This document shows positions 10,300 to 15,357 of a stretch of 23,079 nucleotides of DNA, piece after piece. Numbering within the stretch: position 1 is the stretch's first letter; each line of letters opens with the position of its first letter. Made by a program: the position numbers and the translations under genes. The stretch is from a virus, in the IMG/VR virus record IMGVR_UViG_3300023284_000114, positions 1 to 23,079 of that record; one strand, written 5' to 3'. The notes beneath the pieces are model-generated. The model was not told the DNA's origin. It did not search any database and saw nothing but the letters and a program-made list of their open reading frames with translations.

Positions 10300-10440
10300 A
10301 TGAGGCTAAAATATAATCTTTATGTTCAAACTAGATTGCAATCAGGTCGCAAGTATTTATCATATGATTTATGGAAACAAGAATATGCAACAGACTACGA
10401 TTTACAAAGTGAATTAAAAGTTGACGAACAATCTAAATAG
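10300..10440 (+). CDS. Hypothetical protein, 46 aa, end of the rightward early operon
   Basis: A 47-codon frame runs from ATG 10300, two bases after the previous stop, with a GGAGGG site upstream. It begins MRLKYNLYVQTRLQSGRKYL and is basic and Tyr-rich at the start and acidic at the end (ELKVDEQSK). Its 3' end contains the promoter candidate of the large non-coding RNA. No known family. It is the last gene before 770 bases without a credible gene. Confidence 0.62.
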   Translation: MRLKYNLYVQTRLQSGRKYLSYDLWKQEYATDYDLQSELKVDEQSK

Positions 10441-10449
10441 GACTATTGT
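10421..10449 (+). promoter_or_regulatory. Candidate promoter of the large structured RNA
   Basis: TTGACG (10421-10426), a 17-base spacer and TATTGT (10444-10449) would place the transcription start near 10455-10457. The first strand of the first strong helix, GTGGTCAG, begins at 10456. The match in position is the main support; both boxes are imperfect. Confidence 0.45.
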
Positions 10450-10455
10450 ACTTGG

Positions 10456-11185
10456 GTGGTCAGGGCGACGTTTCGATGTCTTCCTTTCTGCCCAGCTTAG
10501 GAGTTTATGACTCTGACCACAAACTGGGCACTTATATAAACATTCAAAAGCCGGGCAGCTTAATGAAATTAAATGATAACATAACAGAACTATATTACCG
10601 GATTGATTTCGGTAGGCACGTGCCCTGTAGCTCAGTTGGTAGAGCATTCCCGTTCAGTAAGAGATTTGATGCTCTGAAAAGGGAGAGGTCATTGGTTCAA
10701 ATCCTTTCGGGGGGCGTGTCTTCCCAAGTTAATTCGTTGAAGCGACGTGATGCGAACCGTGATATGACACGGTGTAGGATTGCCCCGGCCTTAATTGTGC
10801 CCTTTCAATGGATAAATGCCGAGGTGGGCGGTAAGTATATTCCCACCAGTAATTACCCCAAAATATTACAATCTAAATTTCTCGCAAGGTTAGCGTGCAT
10901 GATTTCTATTGTATTGGGCGGTTTATTAGAAATGGTAGCCGATAAAACCATTCTACTGTTAGACAAAACAATAAAACACACAAAAATTCTATGCTCTGGT
11001 TTACCTTTCCATCATAGACCTATGGTAACATAGTAAGTCTCACATAGTTATTGTGGGATAAACTCCACGGTAAAGAATATGGACTATAAATAATATTCGG
11101 GGAATATGAGTACCTGCCAGAGATGGTTCCGTTAGTTACGGAGATGGAGGCTAAGGCTTACCATAGGGGAAAAGGGAGAGGTGTG
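10456..11185 (+). ncRNA. Candidate large ornate structured non-coding RNA (GOLLD/ROOL-like in scale)
   Basis: The 769 bases between genes at 10440 and 11210 hold many exact complementary helices. Seen directly: GTGGTCAG(GG) 10456-10465 with CTCTGACCAC 10511-10520; TGCCCAG 10489-10495 with CTGGGCA 10524-10530 (crossing, a pseudoknot); GCCGGGCA 10550-10557 with TGCCCCGGC 10781-10789 (one bulge), which encloses hairpin 10596-10614, a tRNA-like domain 10617-10718 and hairpin 10756-10773; GGTGGG 10823-10828 with CCCACC 10842-10847, crossed by GGTAA 10830-10834 with TTACC 10853-10857; CCAA 10858-10861 with TTGG 10914-10917 and ACAAT 10868-10872 with ATTGT 10908-10912; AATGGT 10931-10936 with ACCATT 10947-10952; and a 3' domain closed by CCTATGGTAA 11019-11028 with TTACCATAGG 11158-11167. 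Phages are known to carry very large RNAs such as GOLLD and ROOL, often near tRNAs. Family membership is inference. The 3' end is uncertain. Confidence 0.72.
10617..10718 (+). ncRNA. tRNA-like domain with expanded anticodon arm, embedded in the large RNA
   Basis: The geometry is that of a tRNA: acceptor strand TGCCCTG 10621-10627; T8-A9; D stem GCTC/GAGC with loop AGTTGGTA (10630-10645); anticodon stem TTCCC 10647-10651 with GGGAG 10681-10685; variable loop AGGTC 10686-10690; T arm with GGTTCAAATCC 10694-10704; acceptor strand CGGGGGG 10708-10714. Three things are abnormal. The anticodon loop is 29 bases instead of 7 and contains a TTCAG/CTGAA hairpin, so there is no decodable anticodon. The acceptor helix has a G/G mismatch and continues outward through CACG 10617-10620 with CGTG 10715-10718, leaving no free 3' end or CCA. 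The T stem has two T/T mismatches. It is therefore unlikely to work in translation and looks like a structural module of the surrounding RNA. Confidence 0.75.
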
Positions 11186-11209
11186 ACTGAAACATGAAAG
11201 GACGATAAG

Positions 11210-11476
11210 ATGGATACTGAGAAACAACTAAAAGAGTGGGTTAAAGGAAACTCAATGCACATGGAGGATCAATGTTGCCCTGATTTCTCGTGTTGTGGTG
11301 TAGAAATGGCAGATAAGCGCACCAGAGAGGTTTTCTATAAAGCACACACTGAGGGTGACGACGCAACCACAATGCAAATGCTTGGCATGTTTTTAGGTAA
11401 TGCCCTTGCGGGTGCCGAGGACGCGAACAAAGAGGTTTATATTGCTGGTGTTGATAGTGGCCTAACAAATAATTAA
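11210..11476 (+). CDS. Conserved phage protein with CCPDFSCC motif, 88 aa
   Basis: The protein starts with GAAAGGAC upstream and reads MDTEKQLKEWVKGNSMH, then QCCPDFSCCG at 21-30, followed by a helical region and an end with GMFLGNAL. I recall a widespread small phage and bacterial family with WVKGNS.H....CCPDFSCC and a C-terminal helix ending LG..LA. Four Cys in CCPDFSCC may bind metal. Function not known. It is the first gene after the large RNA and begins about 25 bases after its probable end. Confidence 0.82.
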   Translation: MDTEKQLKEWVKGNSMHMEDQCCPDFSCCGVEMADKRTREVFYKAHTEGDDATTMQMLGMFLGNALAGAEDANKEVYIAGVDSGLTNN

Positions 11477-11516
11477 TTTAACGGGTGGGACAACTGTAAC
11501 TAAAGAGGATAGTAGG

Positions 11517-15150: not shown

Positions 15151-15158
15151 TTACTCCC

Positions 15159-15233
15159 ATGATAGAATTTATAATTTGGTGGTTCGTAATAGGAATAACA
15201 CTAGCAGGATTAAGGGGATTGATAGATGTATAA
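15159..15233 (+). CDS. Possible 24-residue membrane micro-protein
   Basis: A 25-codon frame starts ATG 15159 and encodes MIEFIIWWFVIGITLAG followed by LRGLIDV: a single hydrophobic helix. It overlaps the next frame by 8 bases, in the style of this genome. No good ribosome site is seen, and the start lies 8 bases after a stable hairpin, so confidence is low. Confidence 0.4.
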   Translation: MIEFIIWWFVIGITLAGLRGLIDV

Positions 15234-15357
15234 TGATTTTCTAAGTCTTGGTGGTAAGCAGATTGTAACTGTGGCCTCAATACATTTGAGGTGGCAAATT
15301 AAAACTATAAAATTAATCAAAGACATATGTAAACAGGTGGTACATGGTAAAGCTTAA
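15226..15357 (+). CDS. Hypothetical basic protein, 43 aa
   Basis: The 44-codon frame starts ATG 15226 with AAGGGG 8 bases before it. It begins MYNDFLSLGGKQIVTVASIH and has a Lys-rich helix near the end (TIKLIKDICKQVVHGK). It overlaps the next gene by 14 bases. It is small, basic and unrecognised. Confidence 0.55.
   Translation: MYNDFLSLGGKQIVTVASIHLRWQIKTIKLIKDICKQVVHGKA

Follow-up and report, generated by a model that had tools for sequence, protein, structure and literature searches.

A candidate structured non-coding RNA with a conserved 3′ domain and a tRNA-like element upstream of a gene run in an uncultured phage

Results

Layout of the locus

The window analysed here is the whole of a source record of 23,079 bases. 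It encodes an SU10-type portal and a major capsid protein, and the virus that carries it is a small uncultured virus of bacteria. The RNA locus is on the + strand, between a 46-codon open reading frame (ORF) ending at 10440 and a gene at 11210-11476, which is the first of a long run of genes on the same strand. A promoter-like site, TTGACG-17-TATTGT, is present at 10421-10449 (+ strand) as proposed in an earlier note on this DNA, as a consensus match only. Transcription from it would start near 10456, where the first helix begins. The whole candidate RNA, supported by fold and by non-coding evidence, comprises a 5′ module, a linker and a 3′ domain (10456-11187, + strand); its 5′ end is inferred from the promoter-like site and its 3′ end from the last conserved helix. 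The next gene has its ribosome-binding site and start codon at 11188-11212 (+ strand), and the 3′ domain ends 9 nt upstream of the Shine-Dalgarno sequence. A terminator was found neither between the RNA and the next gene nor elsewhere in the window.

Coding potential

The only long frame in the region is a TTG-initiated ORF of 195 codons (10446-11033). Its stop-free run is unusual, being matched by only 1 of 2000 shuffles. However, 24 other ORFs of the window have codon log-likelihoods between 0.15 and 0.49 while this frame reaches only −0.04, and GC content by codon position is flat along it. The two small ORFs just upstream of the RNA score within the coding range. The product of the TTG frame has no Pfam family and no relative among the viral contigs searched. 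In the sister phage G063 (see next section) tblastn aligns 62 residues at 39%, but this similarity coincides with the part conserved as RNA, and 1-nt indels within it and stops upstream break the frame. A protein gene at this place is thus extremely improbable. The earlier reading of the region as devoid of a credible gene is borne out, and the conserved protein frame that it named as evidence to the contrary was looked for and proved to be interrupted in G063.

A homologue in a sister phage

A search with a 16-base word taken from the 3′ domain retrieved 23 viral contigs, one of which, L157 (record G063, 39,130 bases), is a true homologue and matches window positions 10890-11210 at 83%. G063 is a sister phage, with a capsid protein 95% and a portal 90% identical, in which the terminase large subunit has been exchanged. 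Over the 3′ domain (10996-11190, + strand, 195 nt) 189 columns align, and 11 of them carry substitutions between the two phages. This is 94% identity, compared with 83-85% in the capsid genes and 64-76% in the genes around the RNA. The next genes downstream are unrelated between the two phages and belong to no Pfam family. The stretch 11188-11212, up to and including the ATG, is nevertheless unchanged (25/25 bases) though the gene that it opens differs. The 5′ half is absent from G063, whose own 5′ part could not be aligned beyond a weak stretch. The non-coding length from promoter to ATG is ~470 nt in G063 versus ~760 nt here, and the homologous RNA is ~455 nt. G063 has a promoter-like site of the same layout in the equivalent place, where its non-coding stretch begins, and with a better match (TTGACT-17-TATATT, L180:1249-1277).

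A second short block, AACGGGTGGGACAACTGTAA, is seen at 11480-11499 of the window, after the next gene. It is kept in G063 although the intervening gene is exchanged, and its GUGGGAC could pair with GUCUCAC of the 3′ domain.

Folding of the stretch

The 730-nt unit has a minimum free energy of −214.6 kcal/mol (z −2.5 and −3.5 in two separate estimates). In the second of these its z is the lowest among 32 window segments of 730 nt, though the energy gap is larger in one other segment. The z of the minus strand of the region is almost as low (−2.2). Strong helices are about as numerous as in shuffles (8 versus 8.1), and sliding 150-nt windows did not single out the region. Seven or more helices had been proposed along the whole stretch. 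The low z of the 730-nt unit agrees with that proposal; the ordinary helix count does not, nor does the absence of structure beyond chance in 10805-11000 (z −0.16). The linker (10805-10990, + strand) lies in this part and is 63-67% identical to G063 where it can be aligned.

Structure is best seen in the 3′ part, 10990-11190, where the fold z is −3.4 (1 of 200 shuffles). The tRNA-like part has a z of −2.0. It is enclosed, together with a hairpin at 10756-10773, by a helix at about 10550-10562/10777-10795 (feature 10550-10797, + strand; z −1.6), which is unconserved in G063. At the 5′ end, helix 10456-10465/10511-10520 is crossed by 10489-10495/10524-10530 (10456-10530, + strand). This pseudoknot is above shuffle expectation, being equalled by 3 of 200 shuffles, and was not found in G063. 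Of the two or more crossing pairs suggested earlier, it is the one that stands; the second candidate, 10994-11000/11116-11122, is broken in G063. The strongest local fold of the window lies elsewhere, in an intergenic stretch at 15156-15305 (+ strand, z −4.5).

Structure and covariation of the 3′ domain

The 3′ domain is closed by helices 11002-11010/11175-11183 and 11019-11028/11158-11167. These are followed inwards by hairpins at 11048-11057/11064-11073, 11075-11080/11093-11098 and 11128-11142, and by a GNRA hairpin with the loop GAGA around 11116-11127. In addition, 11030-11034 may form a 5-bp pseudoknot with the loop of the second hairpin. All 49 pairs of the seven-helix structure form in both phages, and none is broken by the 11 substitutions. 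Two pairs are compensated in G063 (A11050-U11071 to C-G, U11080-A11093 to C-G), and one A-U is changed to G-U besides. When the same number of substitutions was placed randomly in Monte-Carlo trials, only ~6e-5 of trials left every pair unbroken and at least two compensated. The fold z of the domain is −3.4 here and −3.3 in G063. Lack of covariation in homologues had been named in advance as evidence against an RNA; in the one homologue at hand, covariation is seen. Both sequences were used in drawing the structure and the covariation consists of two pairs from two sequences, so it is taken as support and not as proof. The column-shuffle control of the counting tool (108/500) is uninformative with two rows.

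A covariance model of the domain, R1, matched only this site and G063. A scan with it of 50 related records, and of 369 genomes that belong to one class, gave no second homologue.

The tRNA-like domain

The tRNA-like fold that the earlier note saw embedded in the stretch is confirmed. Its core, 10623-10712, scores 32.2 bits with the Rfam tRNA model (RF00005), over the gathering score of 29; ARAGORN calls no tRNA in the stretch. A D arm and a T loop are present as in tRNA. In contrast to tRNA, the anticodon arm is replaced by a longer stem-loop (a long insertion) with no anticodon loop, CCA is missing, the T stem has two U-U mismatches, and the acceptor stem is not free. A 7-nt anticodon loop, a paired T stem and a free acceptor end are thus all lacking. 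The acceptor stem instead continues in register, so that the domain extends over 10603-10732 (+ strand): 22 of 25 positions of 10603-10627 pair with 10708-10732. Beyond the tRNA stem proper, 16 of 18 pair (expected, 0.375 per position). A comparable extension is rare: of 38 further tRNA-like elements from phages whose anticodon arms are long, just one, on phage contig L120, has it. The in-register pairing and the rarity of such an extension indicate a tRNA-like domain built into the RNA, rather than a tRNA gene that happens to lie there. It is probably a decayed tRNA taken in as a structural domain in this phage. Neither a tRNA nor a tRNA-like domain was found in G063, and the domain is therefore not a defining part of the RNA.

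Several other elements were encountered during this survey. A pattern for tRNAs with long anticodon arms led to 47 phage loci (L082-L128) whose tRNA or tRNA-like elements have a greatly overlong anticodon arm or variable region. Anticodon loop and CCA are lacking in several of them, and L092, L098, L099, L103 and L105 share one such element; none of the 47 is homologous to the present RNA outside the tRNA. A phage of the same terminase group (G042) has a compact RNA of ~170 nt on the minus strand of L129 (1440-1620). Its tRNA-like tip is carried by a stem of ~29 pairs, and a T run comes next; the fold z is −4.8, the Rfam tRNA model gives 45.9 bits, and ARAGORN calls no tRNA. An apparent tRNA nested within another, tRNA-Leu-like gene is seen at about 1430-1640 of L141 (G048).

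Search for relatives

Membership of the GOLLD/ROOL class had been proposed for this RNA. Rfam models for GOLLD, ROOL, OLE, HEARO and group I and II introns gave no match up to E=5 in either the window or G063, which speaks against that assignment; the only scores in the scan came from degenerate tRNA. Distant blastn against phages and plasmids returned tRNA pieces or chance matches, and the one homologue came from the viral contigs through the word search. A 22-base pattern from the 3′ domain had no match. A 24-base match in L151 sits in a bacterial gene and was taken as chance. A search for related loci with the ORF, 12194 and 8873 proteins gave nothing, and one with three neighbouring proteins together gave two contigs, both without the RNA. 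The RNA was likewise not found in terminase relatives and a Thalassobium contig. In L004 and L010 the shared sequence proved to be the resolvase gene. The fold of the non-coding stretch of L005 is not beyond chance.

Discussion

The stretch is very probably a real structured RNA. As read from the sequences, it is non-coding, has a structured 3′ domain and a variable 5′ half, and is positioned directly ahead of a gene run. The RNA is probably new to Rfam and combines a 3′ module that is conserved with a 5′ module specific to the lineage. The family and this combination are new as far as tested; the kind, structured phage RNA, is already known. The earlier suggestion of a structured phage RNA, possibly of a new family, is supported by the lack of a matching Rfam family, and best in the 3′ domain, where one homologue and two compensatory pairs back it. 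That the RNA stands alone is not evident, since no terminator separates it from the next gene and the conserved block runs through that gene's ribosome-binding site.

The reading that we tentatively prefer is that of an undescribed RNA family with a role in cis, as the leader of the downstream operon. We infer that the RNA is made, and that its 3′ domain acts on the genes behind it. The RNA would be read from the promoter-like site at 10421-10449, and the 195-nt domain, directly before the ribosome-binding site of the first gene of the long same-strand run, would serve as the leader. The fast-changing 5′ half would in this phage have incorporated a decayed tRNA as a structural domain. Like HK022 put RNA, the 3′ domain might act on the polymerase as it passes; alternatively, it might switch ribosome access to the start site. 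In such a switch, the Shine-Dalgarno GAAAGG could be paired by CCUUUC at 11004-11009, which otherwise forms part of the 5′ strand of the closing helix. The fold model predicts an open Shine-Dalgarno in both phages, and the switch is therefore only a possibility. A leader is favoured because of the position of the domain and its unbroken conservation up to the start codon. Against it, regulators in cis as a rule keep to one gene, and the next genes are unrelated in the two phages. A length of 470-760 nt is also very long for a leader; put elements are far shorter.

Somewhat unlikely, yet next in weight, is an RNA acting in trans. It would be processed off the downstream message and self-assemble into a scaffold or cage as GOLLD and ROOL do, with the tRNA-like domain as cargo or decoration; the cage of GOLLD is made of 14 RNA copies. 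Its size, phage setting and dedicated promoter-like site resemble the description of GOLLD, in which a conserved 3′ region is joined to a variable 5′ region that may hold a tRNA (PMC12286853). The low folding z among window segments, the GNRA hairpin and the possible pseudoknots also fit a scaffold. The failure of the GOLLD and ROOL models to match, the conserved block that continues into the next ribosome-binding site with no terminator before it, and the shortness of the G063 homologue argue against it. A broader version is unlikely, in which the members of a new family of large phage RNAs share a conserved 3′ core, swap 5′ modules such as a tRNA turned structural domain, and serve as scaffolds in trans.

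It is improbable that the element is a tRNA mimic in the manner of bacterial Y RNAs, with a domain that is held out on a long stem and, as a decoy or tether, binds host proteins that handle tRNA. The extended acceptor stem, and the phage elements on L129 and L120 with stems of this kind, would be explained by it. However, G063 is without the domain, the YrlA model scores far below its cut-off, and the two T-stem mismatches look like decay. The Ro60 model PF05731 had no match in ten other phage records carrying similar tRNA-like elements, a set that does not include this phage (G000). A Pfam scan of ten window proteins gave no TROVE hit in what may be an incomplete record.

Low probability is also given to the absence of any RNA function. 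The stretch would then be a recombination junction in a genome of mosaic make-up, would hold a dead tRNA gene, and would have been swapped recently between the two phages. The flanking genes differ on both sides while the block stays, AACGGGTGGGACAACTGTAA closes the other side of the swapped gene, helix number is ordinary, and the 94% identity of the block may in part be due to recent exchange. A mere junction, however, would not account for compensatory substitutions with no broken pair, for a 3′-domain fold z beyond −3 in both phages, or for 470-760 non-coding bases retained in a gene-dense genome.

Few large RNAs are known from phages, and their purpose is a standing question. The 195-nt core is of a synthesisable length, and a close homologue with a different 5′ half allows comparison. 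The locus also offers a natural example of a tRNA built as a domain into a larger RNA. If it is a leader, it is a long phage leader of an undescribed kind; if it acts in trans, it gives another route to the question posed by GOLLD and ROOL.

Among known systems, GOLLD is likewise a phage RNA of several hundred nt, and the conserved 3′ and variable, tRNA-bearing 5′ parts seen here in two sequences only are in keeping with its description (PMC12286853). The likeness in layout may be read as a resemblance only: here there is no Rfam match in sequence or structure, the conserved part is ~195 nt, the homologue is ~455 nt, and the RNA abuts the next ribosome-binding site. ROOL is also a large structured phage-borne RNA and is often near tRNAs; the present RNA has no Rfam match to it and no tRNA island in the window. 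Bacterial Y RNA (YrlA) shares a tRNA-like fold with an acceptor stem that runs on into a long helix, but RF02553 gives 19.7 bits here against a cut-off of 69 (E 0.51), and the tRNA-like part is missing in G063. HK022 put RNA, an antitermination leader marked by read-through of terminators in cis, is much shorter than the present RNA. It is a precedent for a phage RNA with an effect in cis on early transcription (PMC9378689). The two are likened by layout, not by sequence: in each case a structured RNA just downstream of a promoter, here a candidate one, heads a run of phage genes.
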